Positions 17,581 through 59,066 of a stretch of DNA of 64,000 bases are shown here, in pieces; within the stretch, counting starts at the first letter, position 1; every line of letters begins with the position of its first letter. Made by a program: the position numbers and the translations under genes. Source of the stretch: Acanthamoeba castellanii str. Neff (Eukaryota > Discosea > Longamoebia > Acanthamoebidae); assembly GCF_000313135.1 (NCBI RefSeq), contig NW_004457380.1, positions 900,843-964,842 of the forward strand. The letters run 5' to 3'. The notes beneath the pieces are model-generated. The model was not told the origin of the DNA. It worked only from the letters and a program-made list of their open reading frames with translations, and ran no database searches.

Positions 17581-20500
17581 ATGGAGAGCCGGAGGCCCAG
17601 CCGCGTTCGTAAATTGACACAAAAGATGAGCGATTTCGCCAAGGATGAAGAGGCCTCCTCCCTCCTTCAGCTGTTAGATGGACGGCTCCGCCTCGGGACA
17701 GAACCAGACGCAGTCGTCAAGGAAGAACGGAACTTGTCCAAGGTGAGCGAGACCGCTACGGCGCTGCGGCGTAGTGGCGGACGAGCAGCCGCGCAGCGCG
17801 AGCACAGGGAAGACGAAGGAGAGGAGGAAAGGGCAGACTGGGACCAGTTTCAAGTCCACCCGCTCGACCGAGGCAAAGCGCCCAGCCACCCTAAGCCCAA
17901 GCGCGACCAGAGCCGAGCCATGGGAGACGCACCCCCCTCCACCACGAGCAGCGTCGACAGCCGCCAAGCCCTCATCGATCAGTCCATCAAGCAGCACCGA
18001 CAGGTACCCTTTTTCGAAAGGCCTCCGGCCTCCTTTGCCTCTAATCACCAACAGCTGCGAGTAGACTAACTCCGCGACATCCGGCGTGCAGTTGTTCTTT
18101 GGCGTGCCTGTGTCGATGCAGGAGGAGAGCTTCTTGTCGCTGGCCGCGATCTCTTGCTTCTTTGCGGACTCCGACGACGACGAGGGAGCCAGGACAAAGA
18201 CCAAGGAGCGGCGCGGCCGAGCATTCATGGCCGACTCTGACGACTCGGAAGACGGCAGGCTGCGACTCAGCCGCAGTGCAGGCAAGCGGAACCGCCAGCG
18301 CGACAAGCTCCCACACGACGATGTGAGTTTGTCGAAGACCAGCGCAGACCAGGGAGGAAGGAAGAGGAGCTTCAGCGATGTCAGCGCAAATGATCACACG
18401 GTGAAGGGAAAGGCCTCTAGGCGGAGCACGAGCGGAGCGCCAGCGCCGGCCGAGCAGAAGAGAAAAGAGAAGAAAGACAAGAAGAGAGACAAGAAGAAGG
18501 CCGATAAAAGTAAGCGACACAAAGCCGGCAAGGTATGGGCGCTCGACAACCTGCCGGAGCTGCCGGGTCTGGAGTACATCAAGGCCAACCTCTATAAGTA
18601 CCCTCTCCTACGCCTTCTCCCTTTTCGCTTGGCCCAGTCCAACCTTAAACGTCAATCGCAGGTGCAGGAAGCCCAAGCTGGAGCGAGCTATGGGGTGCGA
18701 GTGCAAAGAGCGTTGCTTGTCTTGCCCGTGCCGGTACGCTCGCTCAACGCTCACTGCCCAGTGATTTACCACCAACCTTCTGCACGTCCGCCCACTAGTG
18801 GTGCTCAGATGGAGTGCTGCCACAGCAGCTCAGCCGAAGACCCCTGTAAGTGCTCAGGTACGTCTCAAAACTGGTGGCTTTCTTTATTACAAGTGGACTG
18901 TCAGAGGCCTTACCGTGTCCGTTTCAGCCAAGTGCAAGAACCAACGGCTGACGAAGGGAAAGGTTGCTCCCATCGCGGTGGTGAAGACAACGAAGAAGGT
19001 ATGCTGTTCTGCCTTAGCACGGACACCGCAGCCACATTCGTTACACCAAAGCGACTCACAAGCCTGATCTTGCGACAGGGTTATGGTGTGATTGCGGATG
19101 CCACCATCAAGCCTCGTTCGCTCATCATCGAGTATGTGGGAGAGGTACGTGGAAACAGCGCCGTATTGGTACGACTCAATGCCCAACTGTCCGCTGACCG
19201 GAAGTTCATGTGCTAGGTCATCTCCGAAACCGAGAAGAATCGTCGGATGAAGCGGAGGGACGATGACGGCAACTGCTACTTCATGGAGCTCTACTCGCAA
19301 AAGGTCTCCATGCAAAGAAGATCTTTGTACGTTCTTTTTGAGTAGCTTTCATCCTTATCGCCTCGGCGCTCTTATCAGAATGACTGACGACACGCCGACG
19401 CAGCCCTAAGCGACCGACCAGCGGTGGAGAGGTCAAAGACTCACCTGAACCCGAGGACTCGAAGGAAGACCGCGAGAGCGGCAAGGCCAAGAAGAAGAAG
19501 AAGTCCAAGCCAAGGACCGAGGAGGAGATCCGGGACAGGAAGAGCCGGAAGGGTCTCAAGCTAGCCTGCAGCAACTGCCGCATGTCTCATCTTGCCTGCT
19601 CGCACGAGACCCCGTGCAGCCGCTGTGTAGAAAAGGTGTGAGCCCAACCCTCTCGCCCCTTTGTGGGCGTCATCGTAGCGCAAGCCAAGAACTCACGCTT
19701 GCGATGAATGTTGGCACAGGGAATGGCCGATTCGTGCGTATTCATTCCGAAACGTCGCAGGCGCACCTACCAACAAATCGAGGAGGACAAACGCAAGGAG
19801 CGAGAGAAGGAAAAGAAGAAGCGCGCACGGGAGAAGAAGAAGCCGGCCAGCGCCAAGGAGGCCGTGGCCGAAAGCAAGGCGGAGCGGGCTGCTTCAGATG
19901 ACGAAGAGAATGAAGCGATGAACGTCGATGCGCCGGAGGAGAAGAGCCGCGCCGATGGAGACGCGGACAAATCGGTAGACGAGCCCATCAAGACGAAGAG
20001 CGAAGCCGTAGACGATATCAACGACGAAGGCAGCGAAGAGGAAGCACTGGCGCAGCTGCTCTGCGCGATGCCCACGCGGGTCGGACTGTTCGGCGGCGCC
20101 ACCGATAGCGATGGCATGGCCACGAGTGGCCAGGAGCGTGGAGCTCCCCGCGCCAAGGGCAACGACGATGGCGAGGATGAGTACAAGGACGAGGGAGAGG
20201 ACTACGCTGACTCAGATGACTACGAGAGCACTGGCGACGAGGAAGATGGCGAGTCGAGCCGTACCGATGGAGGTGTCAAAGCCGGCGCCATGATCAGGAG
20301 GTGGTACATCGACGCTGCGGAGAAAGGCAACGCGGCCCGCTTCATCAACCACTCCTGCCAGCCGAACTGTGTCGTTGAGCGGTGCGTGACCACCCACTCA
20401 AGACCATGCCTATCAAACGCGTATTCACGTGCCGAGCGTGGTGGGGTTTAGGTGGCAATGCGGTGAGCAGATGCGCTTGGGCATCTTCGCTGCGGTCAAG

Positions 20501-52289: not shown

Positions 52290-54319
52290 ATGTTGCCATC
52301 GATCGCGAATCTGCTCAACTTCGAGGCCTCGAACACCAACGACGACGATTCGATGGACGTCGTGGCCACACCCTCTCCCGCCGGCTACTACTCATCGTCG
52401 AGTATGAGTAACTCGGCGACAAGCCCTACTTTTGGCTTCCACTACACGAGTAGCACCTCTCCATCGTCGATGGGGGGTGCTAATCCGAATGATGCCACTA
52501 CGCCGACCCACCATTCGCCGCGATCCGAGCAACAACGCGAGGGCAAGAAGAAGAATTCGATCCACTTCCTCCTCAACAGCAACGATGCCATGGAGGAGTG
52601 CTCGGCCAGCGTCGAATCGGCCAAATCTTCGTCCTCTACGCCGGCCCCGTCGACCGCCGCGAGCGGTCCGTCGCCTTCCACCCAGCGCCGACGCAAGCTG
52701 CTGCGACGCAACCGGTCGGACGACCGTCAGCTGTCGATGGCCGACAACAACAACAACGACGATGAGAAGACGAGGAAGAGGAGCGCGCCGCACGCATGCT
52801 GCTCATGCAAGGCTTCCCGCCCGACAAGGGACTCTTCCAGACGCCCTCGTCCAGCGGCAGCGGCAGCGCGGGTGCCTCGCGCCTGGGCAACTTCCCGCTG
52901 CCGGCTCACAGCATCGAGCAGCTGCTCCCCGCGACCACCTCGAGCCGCGGCTCGCCCAAGCCGTCGCGTCTTTTCCGCCGCAACAACAACAACAGCAACC
53001 AGCAGCAGCAACAGCAGGAGCTCGCGTACCAGCAGCAAATGCAACAGTACCAGCTCCAGCAGCAGCTTCAACTTCAGCAACAGCTCCTCCATCAGCAGCA
53101 GCAGCAGCACCAGCACCAACACCACCACCAGCAGCAGATGCTCATGCACACGAAAAAGAGCGGCAAGGACGTCCCGGTGCTGCTGCACCCGCCGCTGTCG
53201 CCCGGACCCAGCGACCACGTCAGCGTCGAGGTGTTCGGCGGCTCGTCGCTGCGCCGAAGCAACCCCGATCGATTGCCACCCTCGTCGGCGGTGATGGCGT
53301 CGACGTCGACCTCGCCCACGATGACCTCGTCGCCGGTCCTGTCCTCGTCGCCGTCGGCCTCGCTGTCGCCCTCGCTCATGTCGCCCTCGAACCGACACAG
53401 CCATCAGCTGCTGCCGCCGTCAAGCGTCCCGTCGCCCGCGTCGTCCCGGCCGCCGCTCGAGAGGAATCCGTCGGTCTACTCGCTCAAGTCCTTCTACCAA
53501 CAAGCGTCGACTGGCGTAGCCACCGCGCCGCAGTCTGCCGCGGCCGCGCCGTACACGCCACACTACGGAGCGCCGCCGCCGCAGTACGGCACGATGCCCA
53601 CCAACCCGTCGCACCACGGCTACGGCTCGTACCCGCCCTCGGGTGGCCACCCGTTCGCCGCGCAGCACCAGCAACAGCAGCTCCTCCAGCACCAACATCA
53701 GCAACAGCAGCTTCACCTGCAGCACCAGCACCAGCAGCACCTGCTCCAGCAGCAACAGCTGGTCCAGCAGCAGCTCCAGCAGCAGCAACACCACAAGCTC
53801 AAGGAGGAGCGGCCGTCGTCATCGGCCGCCGACCAGGAGCGACACCAGACCGAGCGGCTCGAAGAGCGGCGGCGGCTGACCAAGGAGCAGAAGAAGGTGC
53901 TCGAGGCCGTGTTCGAGCTCGACCCGCTGCCCAGCGCCAAGACCAAGCGCACCCTCGCCGGCGAGCTGGGCATGTCCCTTCGGAGCGTGCAGATGTGGTT
54001 CCAGAACCAGCGGGCCAAGCTGCGCAAGCGCGAGAAGGAGGCCAAGGACGGTGGTAGCGACAACTACCCCACGACCAAGGCCATCGCCTCGCCACCGTCA
54101 TCATCGTCTTCTTCGGCCAAGGGTGGTCGGCGCAGCGGCACCAGCAGCCTACGATCGTCGGACGAGCGAGGCAACGGAGCCGAGAGCCACAGCCTGAGCA
54201 GCAGCGGCGGCGGTTCCAAGCGGGGCGGCGGCGCGGCGCCCAACTCGCTGGTCTTCCACCACATGAAGGCCAAGACCGAGGCCGGCGGCGTCTTCCAGCT
54301 GGTCGCCGAGGACCCGTGA
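52290..54319 (+). CDS. homeodomain transcription factor, one apparent frame break
   Basis: About 676 residues once the break is bridged. The N-terminus has MLPSIANLLNFEASN and KNSIHFLLNSND. The middle is Ser-rich with long poly-Gln/His runs (53000-53130 and 53665-53790). The homeodomain near 53870-54045 includes RRRLTKEQKKVLEAVFELDP, KRTLAGELGMSLRSVQMWFQ and NQRAKLRKREKE; recognition-helix WFQNQRAK is intact. The C-terminus is Gly/Ser-rich. Up to about 52763 the frame reads ...ADNNNNDDE; beyond that, the frame one base away reads EDEEEERAARMLLMQGFPPD and continues to the stop. One missing base at about 52763-52767 would restore continuity; no GT..AG intron fits. A nuclear DNA-binding regulator is secure; its targets are unknown. 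Confidence 0.87.
53005..53132. repeat. CAG/CAA repeat coding poly-Gln
   Basis: Runs of cagcagcaa with caccag interruptions within the homeobox gene encode Gln-rich and Gln/His-rich stretches. A second similar tract lies at about 53660-53795. Confidence 0.85.
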
Positions 54320-54511: not shown

Positions 54512-56298
54512 TTAGATTATATCTAACCAACCATCGACGCGTCCATTCCTTTTGTGTCTTCTTGGGGCAGGCAGTGCGGCCAACAGTTCGGACAGCCAGA
54601 CGCGAGCCCCGGGCGTCTCGGCCACGGCGCCGGCGAGTGCGACCAGCGTGTCTCGTTGCTGAATGGCGCCGGTGCCGGTGGCATACTCGTGGCCATCAAA
54701 CTGGACCGTGCACACCGTGCCCTCTTGGTCCACCACCAATCCTGTATTCCCCGTACGCCGCGCCCACGTGAGTGCGTGTGCGGCACGGCACGAGTTCTTC
54801 TCATTTCAAGGGAGTCGGGCGTGTACCGATGTTGCGCACTTGAAGGAGGCGTGGGTGCAGGTCGTAGTCGCGGTAGACCCCGCCGCCGTAGTAGGCGTAG
54901 ATCTCCTGGCCTGGCGGGACCGCGCGGAGGGTCCACACCTCTGTCTGTCGCGTGTGGTGGTTCTGCACGAAACAGGCATTGGGGAAGTAGCGCAGCTGGT
55001 CCTCGTCGTCACCTTCGAGCGAGTCTTCGTGGTAGTGCGCAATGGGAGGCGCAGGTGGTTCGTTGACGCAGTGCGCCAAGAAGCGTGGCACGTCCCACTC
55101 GGGCATTACCTGTCCCTCCTCATCTGACACACACTCACACACACACACACAACACAACACAACACACAACACACACAACACACACACACACACAACACAC
55201 ACACTCAGTCACACACACACAAAACACACACAACACACACGATCAGGTCACTTCTCTTGACATGTGTGGGTGAGCAGTGCGAGATCTACCTGTAGGATCG
55301 AGCACCCACTCGTCGTCGTAGGAGTTGATGAGATATCGGGCCTTGGCGATTACCGCGCTCGGTGGGAGCTCTTCCCACTCCGCTGCGGCATTTTCTTCGC
55401 TCGTGGTGCTCGGGGCGCGCCGCCGCCGCATGACCTGACCCGGCGGCTTGGGCTGGCCGCCGTAGGTCGCCACCTTGGTCAGCGCCGGCAGGTGCCGCGC
55501 CGCGAACAGGCCGCGGCCGTGCAGCCCGCTCGGGCGCGCCTCTACATTCGGCCCTCTACTCTCCTCTTCAATCACCAGGTCGACCGTGACGAGCTCCGAG
55601 GAGCGCATGTGCTTCCGGGCCAAGTCGCGCAGGCCCGACGGCAGGGTGGCGGTGAAGAAGAGCGTCTGTCGCTGCCCCGCCTCGGGCAGGGCGGCCAGTA
55701 TGCGGTCGAGCTCGTCGCCCAAGCCAAGATCGAGCATCTGGTCGGCCTCGTCCACCGCCACCACCCGCACCTCGGCCAGCTGCTGGCCGTTGTCGACAAT
55801 CATTCGAGCCCGTCGGGGCGTGCCCACGACAACGTCGGCGGCGCTCACATGATCAGCCTCTTCCAGGGGATCGCCGCCGGTGACGCAGACCACCCGTAGG
55901 CCGGGTGCCACCAGCGCGAACTCCCGGGCGATCTCACTGGCGAGCTCGCGGGTGGGCGAGAGGCAGACCACTTTGGGTCCGGCCTGGCTGCGGGTGGTGC
56001 TAATGGTGATGGGGTCGCTGCAGTACAGCAGCAGTCGCTGGGCGATGGGCAGGACGAGGGCCAGGGTCTTGCCGCTGCCGGTGCGGGCGCGGGCGACGAC
56101 GTCCCGGCCGTCGTAGATGTGGTCGAACGTGCGCGCCTGAATGGGTCGCAGGTACTTGAAGCCGCGGTCCGCGAGCAGTTGGGCAGTGCTGGGCGAGACG
56201 CGGAAGGTCGAGACATCTGAAGAGCCAAATCAACAAAATCTTGATTTATAAATCGAACAAAAAAAAAATGGAAACAGCTCACCTGTCTGCCACTCCAT
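54512..56298 (-). CDS. DEAD-box helicase domain 1 fused to a SET domain
   Basis: Four exons (56298-56283, 56216-55290, 55123-54827, 54741-54512) give 489 residues; frames close. Residues ~6-222 are the first RecA domain of a DDX21/DDX50-type RNA helicase: FRVSPSTAQLLADRGFKYLR with PIQARTF (Q motif), ARTGSGKT (Walker A), SPTRELA (Ia), GTPRRARMIVD (Ib), VDEADQMLDLGLGDELDRIL (DEAD, ~161-164), and FTATLP for SAT. Right after HMRSSELVTVDLV, where DDX21 would pass to its linker and RecA2, the same uninterrupted exon reads GPNVEARPSGLHGRGLFAAR, a SET-domain start. SET continues through AHCVNEPPAP, YFPNACFVQN and LRAVPPGQEIYAYYGGGVYR. RecA2 (motifs IV-VI) is absent, so unwinding is unlikely while ATP binding is possible. 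The first 5-residue exon is the weakest part. Confidence 0.8.
55125..55240. repeat. (CA)n/(AACAC)n microsatellite in intron
   Basis: About 115 bp of nearly pure CA and AACACA repeats inside the second intron of the helicase-SET gene. Confidence 0.9.
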
Positions 56299-57513: not shown

Positions 57514-58244
57514 TGATGCCGAGGAGGGGGCTGGCGAGGACCTGGGCGAGGAAACATCATGAGGTAGGTCAGTGGGCGAGGCCTGCCGTTGGTAGCGCTG
57601 CCCACTGTGGCGGTCGATCGAGGCCCAGATGTGTGAATCCAGGGCGAAGCCGTAGTTTTGGAGCACGCAGTGGGTGTGGTGGCTCTTCGTGTGCGACATG
57701 ACCTGACCGCTTGAAACTGGAGTGGGACGACCGCAGTGGTTGCTGTTCTTGTTCTGGTTGGCGTCGTGAGTCGTGTTGTGTCGTCTTTTATGCGCGGTTG
57801 CGGTTGCGCCCACTTCCCCACGCCATCGGTTTCGTCACGGCTGCGCAATGGCGATGTTGCCTTTCGCTTCGGAGTTTAAACCTGTACCTGTGGGCAGATA
57901 CACAGGACCCACGTATCTCCCGGCACAGCCGATCGGCCTCTCCCGAGGGCGCACTTTCCTAAGAGGGGGCGTGCATGGAAAACAAGAGGTGGTTCGCATC
58001 ACAACCTGGGGCCAATCCGTCGCAGTATCCTAATCGCTGGCCGTGACCTTGCCACGCGGGCTAGACATGATCTTGGCATGGCCTCGGGCCAGATGCGTGA
58101 ACAAAGGTCTGTATCTCCGAAAGCAGTGCACACCGTTCGTAAGGCACGAACAACGTCAATACCGGAGCTTTGCGCACAGTACGAGCGTTGAGGTGCGGAC
58201 AAGCGAAGTGACAGAGCCAGACGATCACAGAACAAAATAGAAAA
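57514..58244. other. divergent intergenic region
   Basis: The first ~185 bp may be coding for the unknown reverse gene if its longer start is used. The remainder, up to the FIS1 start, shows no gene. Confidence 0.35.
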
Positions 58245-59066
58245 ATGGAAAAGAAAAGTACAAAGAAAAAAAGTGCCGCCAAGATGGAGGATGATCGAGA
58301 GTATGACAAGCAGACAACAGAGGAAATTAAGGAAGACATCCGGCAGCAGATGAAGAGCGAGGAGTCCATCGACTTCCGGCTCGATCTCGAGGTACATCCA
58401 AACATTATGTGCATCTTTCCACTTTTTCCATCAACGCCTCGCGTTCAGTGGCCAAATCATGTGGCAAGCACCATGCGACTGTCGTTTCAGTGTTGGGCCT
58501 CTACACTATGCTTTTCTTCATGTGAATCCATCCGAATGATGCAAAACCGCGCGGATGTTCTGCTACAGCGGCTGGAGCGCGAGTACAAGGAGGAGTGTCG
58601 GCAGCACGGGTCGGCCGGTGCCAAGAAGTTCCCCTACGCGGTGCTCCTCATCCGAAGCAACAACAGGCAGCAGGTGGAGTTCGGCGTGCGGCTGCTCCAC
58701 GAGGAGCTGCGCGAGGAGATCGAGGACGGCGGCCGGGCCAACCTGTACTACCTCGCCCTGGGCTACTTCAGGCTGGGCGACTACGTGGCCGCCCGCAAGT
58801 CCGCCGAGGCCCTGCTCCAGCTCGAACCGCACAACCGCCAGGCCCGCGCCATGAAGGCCCTCCTCGACGAGCAGATCACCAAAGGTCCGCACCGCTCGCT
58901 CGTTCGCGTTGGTCTTCGCCACCACTTGCTGACTCGCTGACCCAAACTCTCCACGGCATGCACAGATGGGCTGGTGGGCATGGGCTTGGTGGGCGGTGCG
59001 ACGCTGCTGGCTGCAGGCGCGCTGACGGCGGGCGTCTTTTTGATCAGAGCCTTGGCCAAGAAGTGA
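58245..59066 (+). CDS. FIS1: mitochondrial fission protein FIS1
   Basis: Tail-anchored outer-membrane protein that helps recruit the division machinery to mitochondria and peroxisomes. Three exons (58245-58391, 58569-58884, 58966-59066) give 187 residues. A Lys-rich N-terminal extension of ~40 residues precedes the fold, whereas animal FIS1 is ~152. The two TPR-like units are FPYAVLLIRSNNRQQVEFGV and YYLALGYFRLGDYVAARKSA with EALLQLEPHNRQARAMKALL, matching FIS1 (FxYAxxLVRS, YYLAxGxYRL, LLxxEPxNxQA). The C-terminal anchor starts TKDGLVGMGLVGGATLLAAG, has a single hydrophobic helix and ends RALAKK, as expected. It converges on the UreF gene (145 bp between stops). Confidence 0.92.

Follow-up and report, generated by a model that had tools for sequence, protein, structure and literature searches.

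The closest described relatives of the two halves of the locus analysed here are the nucleolar RNA helicases DDX21 and DDX50 (Gu) and the SET-domain lysine methyltransferases. The helicases carry a RecA1 domain, whose motif Ib is an RNA-contact motif, together with RecA2, a GUCT domain and a glycine-rich tail. In SET methyltransferases the asparagine of NHSC is a residue of the SAM motif and the tyrosine of the DYG/YYG end is catalytic. In a 64-kb window of Acanthamoeba castellanii DNA (the whole stretch that was analysed), a RecA1 domain resembling that of DDX21/DDX50 in sequence and predicted fold is joined to a domain that resembles the methyltransferases in its GRGLF start, its YYG end and a full-length Pfam SET match. 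The fusion differs from DDX21/DDX50, of which this genome has an intact copy, in the absence of RecA2, GUCT and the glycine-rich tail, in a changed motif Ib and in the attached SET domain. It differs from the SET methyltransferases in reading AHCVNE for NHSC, in an insertion before PNA and in the RecA1 at its N-terminus; inspection by eye also revealed no post-SET cysteines.

DDX21 is described as nucleolar (PMC8965128), and the SET isoform REIIBP as methylating nucleolar proteins, its 40 candidate substrates including DEAD-box helicases (PMC12466271). In the excerpted text of PMC13287619, DDX21 is used only to stain nucleoli alongside the SET protein NSD3, which gives no support for a physical link. 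Both parts of the protein are known, and for their pairing no report was found among the titles and abstract openings listed by the literature searches; the main text of the Acanthamoeba genome paper (PMC4053784) contains no occurrence of SET domain, DEAD or helicase.

The fused gene

The gene comprises four exons with GT-AG joins and no frame shift, encoding 489 aa and a stop (Table 1), and the protein begins with a DDX21-type RecA1 (to aa 220), continues through a short linker into a divergent SET domain (aa 239-394) and ends in a tail. An earlier note, made from the letters of the DNA, had described a single exon in which helicase motifs run on into SET, and a 328-aa open frame (56229-55243) indeed carries all of the motifs that it listed. 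The RecA1 motifs lie at 56088-56065 (ARTGSGKT), 55959-55939 (SPTRELA), 55755-55741 (VDEAD) and 55656-55639 (FTATLP), and the SET motifs at 55521-55504 (HGRGLF), 55464-55447 (YGGQPK) and 54893-54876 (YYGGGV). The same note gave both ends of the gene correctly and rightly placed the end of SET in the exon that follows, but had not named the fourth exon. Third-position GC content in the linker is 7/13 against 392/477 in the remainder (p 0.02, for a linker picked after looking), a low value compatible with former non-coding sequence.

Table 1. Features of the fusion gene in window coordinates.
Feature	Position	Strand	Content and evidence
Exon 1	56283..56298	-	MEWQT, start codon, then phase-1 intron; same join in P0001 (MEWYTDVSTF)
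Exon 2	55290..56216	-	One open frame with RecA1, linker and N-terminal part of SET; junction in P0001, P0002, P0003
DDX21-like RecA1 domain	55573..56211	-	STFRVSP to VDLV; Pfam DEAD 2.5e-39
Junction linker	55534..55572	-	IEEESRGPNVEAR; GC3 7/13; last residues overlap SET start
SET N-terminal half	55290..55545	-	HGRGLF ... YGG ... RYLINSYDDEWVLDP; Pfam SET; hhalign to SETs of same genome
Intron 2	55124..55289	-	Contains GT-rich microsatellite (55240-55122, by eye); absent in P0001
Exon 3	54827..55123	-	SET C-terminal half: AHCVNEPP, FPNACFVQN, EIYAYYGGGVY; relatives P0004, P0005
Exon 4	54512..54741	-	C-terminal extension without assigned fold, stop codon; same end in P0001 (DGWLDII)

Two plus-strand open frames flank the gene: one with a homeodomain and long glutamine stretches (52766-54319; Pfam 3.6e-16), convergent with it, and one of the Fis1-type TPR kind (58212-58940; Pfam 3.8e-16), about 1.9 kb upstream.

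Other sequences across the junction

A search of 5.77 billion proteins with residues 225-489 yielded two matches among 7050 candidates (P0001 and P0002), and the SET part of P0001, used as a second query, yielded four among 1518 (P0003, P0004, P0005 and again P0002). Such searches are limited to relatives whose length is 0.55-1.75 times that of the query, and the database may contain few amoeba genomes, which bears on any rarity of the architecture. P0001 (485 aa, from a 1752-base contig) is 96% identical to the window protein along its length, from MEWYTDVSTF to DGWLDII, and because all three introns are missing exactly at the joins predicted for the window gene, it is probably a cDNA contig; this is the simplest reading, the alternative being an intron-less genomic copy. 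The existence of this intron-free sequence suggests that the fusion gene is probably transcribed. P0002, from a 6210-base contig, covers RecA1 and the portion of SET encoded by exon 2, with identities to the window protein of 185/214 and 78/93, respectively, compared with 207/214 and 93/93 for P0001. P0003, a strain or metagenome copy, spans the junction and matches a third of its query (the SET part of P0001) at 99% identity, with an apparent in-frame gap of 42 residues that removes positions 166-207 of the window protein, motif III included.

The junction VTVDLV-(I/V)EE(E/G)SRGP is common to these three proteins, all from other sources, and to the window protein, confirming the DEAD-SET fusion proposed in the earlier note: the chimeric gene looks real. 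Profile searches also recovered each half, DEAD at 2.5e-39 (aa 29-203) in the whole protein and SET over its cut-off in the SET piece alone. The genome was examined in a single assembly, and P0001-P0003 were compared as proteins rather than as DNA, so that an artefact joining two genes might be envisaged; however, misassembly is unlikely because all three span the junction, the open frame is continuous through it, and a misassembly or wrong gene model, to which we would give very little credence, was set aside. A further protein search scored the best 7998 candidates, and among the 120 of 1093 matches listed, no SET motif was seen by eye in P0006, P0007, P0008, P0012, P0021, P0026, P0028, P0074 or P0099. 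The Pfam annotation of these 120 holds no SET, but holds none for P0001-P0003 either, and is therefore uninformative.

A DDX21 segment without RecA2

The assignment of the helicase half to DDX21, already made in the earlier note, held on two counts: the best match by sequence among solved structures was human DDX21 (3.9e-40), and the best paralogue in the genome, 53% identical in RecA1, was an intact DDX21-like gene that lies on C218 and encodes DEAD, Helicase_C and GUCT domains. NCBIfam returned only bacterial helicase names for RecA1, all under their cut-offs. Between the fusion and the C218 gene, blastn found one block of 69.9% identity over RecA1 and short weak matches elsewhere; no strong similarity extends past VDLV, and the break falls directly after this motif, at the end of the RecA1 fold. 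In the tree, the fused forms made up one clade (100/100) on a long branch, the genome's own DDX21 grouped with P0006, P0007 and the human protein (87/93), and the node joining these two clades had values of 89/84 and was not starred. Both the fusion and the DDX21-like gene have, as judged by eye, a phase-1 intron just upstream of RecA1, which suggests duplication at the DNA level rather than a retrocopy.

In a first AlphaFold run the model was poor throughout; in the second, block means for RecA1 lay mostly at 82-94 and fell to 51-76 at the N-terminus and in loops. Foldseek, interpreted for RecA1 only as the SET half had no usable model, placed the RecA1 domains of Hera and DDX21 among the best matches, with DDX21 (6l5m, 7e-18) at rank 3 after Hera. 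RecA1 is thus predicted to be a complete domain with a DDX21-like fold.

The earlier note had further held that RecA2 is absent and that RecA1 had replaced it with a methyltransferase. Pfam searches of the whole protein detected neither Helicase_C (PF00271) nor GUCT, the latter scoring 1.8e-19 in the genome's DDX21. With tblastn, the two RecA2 exons of that DDX21 gave at best an 8-residue match in the window (E 0.067), whereas the RecA1 of the same query found the fusion at 8e-70 (52%). At E 0.001 there was no Helicase_C on contig C161, with 81 listed matches genome-wide, counts that are lower bounds as the search runs exon by exon. The absence of RecA2 was therefore upheld for the window and this contig. 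The replacement stood as a fusion but not as a simple swap, the genome's DDX21 being still intact; a SET gene was probably preceded by, and then fused to, a duplicate of part of DDX21, leaving the original untouched. The fusion would illustrate how partial gene duplication can equip another enzyme with a new front end.

Crystals of isolated DEAD domains have been obtained with AMP, ADP or AMPPNP bound, and it is the second domain that holds the putative arginine finger (PMC2948006). As the RecA2 half, with the arginine finger and motifs IV-VI, is missing, RNA unwinding by the fusion protein alone would not be expected, whereas binding of nucleotide and docking would.

A divergent SET half

The assignment of the second half is marginal and points to a divergent SET domain. 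Scored whole, the proteins fall below the curated Pfam cut-off of 22.4 bits (21.0 bits, 4.7e-4, for the window protein, and 20.9), and the piece alone rises over it (23.2 bits, 9.4e-5, for the window and 22.9 for P0001). No Pfam SET match was obtained for P0004 and P0005 as listed or for a trimmed P0005. GRGLF, YGG, RYLINS..D, PNA and YYG fit the SET core, and when a profile of three SET relatives was compared by hhalign with SETs from this genome, the match (P 3.4e-5, probability 72%) was confined to the N-terminal half. Profile matches in the PDB were weak, to MLL1/KMT2A at the start (E 0.08) and KMT5B at the end (E 0.21), and no match emerged when the PDB was searched with a single sequence. 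Neither of the two AlphaFold runs modelled SET; in the second, values for this half were mostly below 50, and in the second alignment P0005 has its N-terminal half out of place.

In place of NHSC, the window protein has AHCVNE; AH is also found in P0001 and P0004, and P0005 has GHLVNE. This loss of the asparagine, together with a SET score near the cut-off, would be consistent with a catalytically dead SET half in a protein that exerts competitive regulation on DDX21 or its partners. We regard this as unlikely, since the fusion keeps both GRGLF and the YYG end (EIYAYYGGG, reached by the Pfam match), and HxVNEPP and PNAxFVQNHHT, both shared by P0004 and P0005, are conserved in each of the three rows covering them, as expected of a used site.

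Retention of RecA1 and putative function

Across motifs Q, I, Ia, Ib, II and III, 31 of 34 residues are the same as in the genome's DDX21, against 80/176 at other positions (p 3.5e-7); for comparison, human DDX21 keeps 29/34 and 74/175. Judged by these residues, the ATP-site motifs of RecA1 are kept. The three exceptions are A23P, a proline also found in P0006, P0007 and the human protein, G132R in motif Ib, and S187T in motif III (SAT to TAT). Motif Ib is degraded from TPGR to TPRR, or TPMR in P0002, where GG has also become GA. Over 210 codons, comparison with DDX21 gave dN 0.37 and dS 0.53, a ratio of about 0.7 that is rough because GC3 bias is presumed to lower dS, and constraint on RecA1 relative to DDX21 appears weak overall. 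Along the fused stem, changes steer clear of conserved columns (30/96 vs 44/82, p 0.0036), whereas those between P0002 and the window protein show no significant shift away from them (11/103 vs 17/103, p 0.31), nor did five alternative selections of columns or pair (p 0.10-0.83); constraint on RecA1 therefore acted early, and present-day constraint is unproven.

These figures bear on whether RecA1 might be a mere passenger in a real fusion, decaying slowly while selection keeps SET and the open frame. The dN/dS ratio, the recent changes that are not significantly concentrated in variable columns, the altered motif Ib, the GG change in P0002 and the 42-residue deletion in P0003 would all be consistent with such decay. 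Nevertheless, we find this rather unlikely given the retained motif residues and the pattern of the stem changes. Furthermore, between P0002 and the window protein, RecA1 is conserved no less than the SET part of exon 2, although between P0001 and the window protein it is SET that is unchanged.

The interpretation that we favor tentatively, at a probability of about 0.45, is that of a real chimeric gene whose RecA1 serves as a docking module bringing SET methylation to nucleolar or pre-ribosomal targets. A small SET-domain gene would have received, upstream and in frame, a copied RecA1 segment from a helicase gene of the DDX21 type, and this segment, unable to unwind alone, could act as an ATP-binding docking module, since its ATP-site motifs and DDX21-like predicted fold are kept. 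Docking would take the SET domain to the surroundings of DDX21, the nucleolus and pre-ribosomal RNPs, where it might methylate a nearby protein; this location is proposed because DDX21 is nucleolar and a SET isoform methylating nucleolar proteins has been described. Docking, methylation and targets are all inferred. A half helicase core kept on a SET protein would show reuse of RecA1 outside unwinding.

The kept ATP motifs would also fit a working ATPase, in which RecA1 pairs in trans with the RecA2 of another helicase and gates SET by ATP or RNA. This is doubtful, as all three fused forms covering motif Ib show it altered and a RecA2 partner was not identified. The ATP- or RNA-responsive methyltransferase envisaged in the earlier note is likewise hypothetical, motif Ib being degraded and the N of NHSC changed. 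ATP gating is possible but unsupported; in its single-RecA form, to which we attach a similarly low likelihood, nucleotide on the orphan RecA1 would open or place the SET active site on pre-ribosomal RNPs, and if true, such a switch would be a new coupling of energy charge to lysine methylation. The fusion offers a ready test case for both the docking and the ATP-gating ideas.

Origin of the SET part

P0004 and P0005 are 46% and 53% identical to the SET query, each over about 60% of it. P0005 reads on through an apparent intron after DPT, the place of intron 2 in the fusion, and its last residues, shifted by one base, are compatible with EIxVYYGxGVYRD; in both relatives the protein letters suggest an extra intron after PPG that is absent from the fusion. 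P0005, which shares SET sequence and intron place with the fusion, differs from it in being apparently unfused, as known from the protein: it starts MEGVEVRESVLHGRG, and its Met coincides with the SET start, a hint of an unfused ancestor. This Met may be either the start codon of an unfused gene or the choice of a gene caller.

Within the genome, no second copy of the SET part was found at E 0.001, all three matches being its own exons, and only one of the 16 SET loci (L003-L018) matched it, weakly (L004, 12.9 bits). Viral and prokaryotic origins of the SET part were considered and rejected, the 54 viral and 60 prokaryote stretches with the short pattern containing no relatives by tblastn. Four of five viral candidates matched the whole protein, in the RecA1 range only (30-38%). 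The window also contains a second SET-domain exon (about 20281-20388, plus strand; ARFINHSCQPNC), of the ordinary NHSC type and scoring 35.9 bits.
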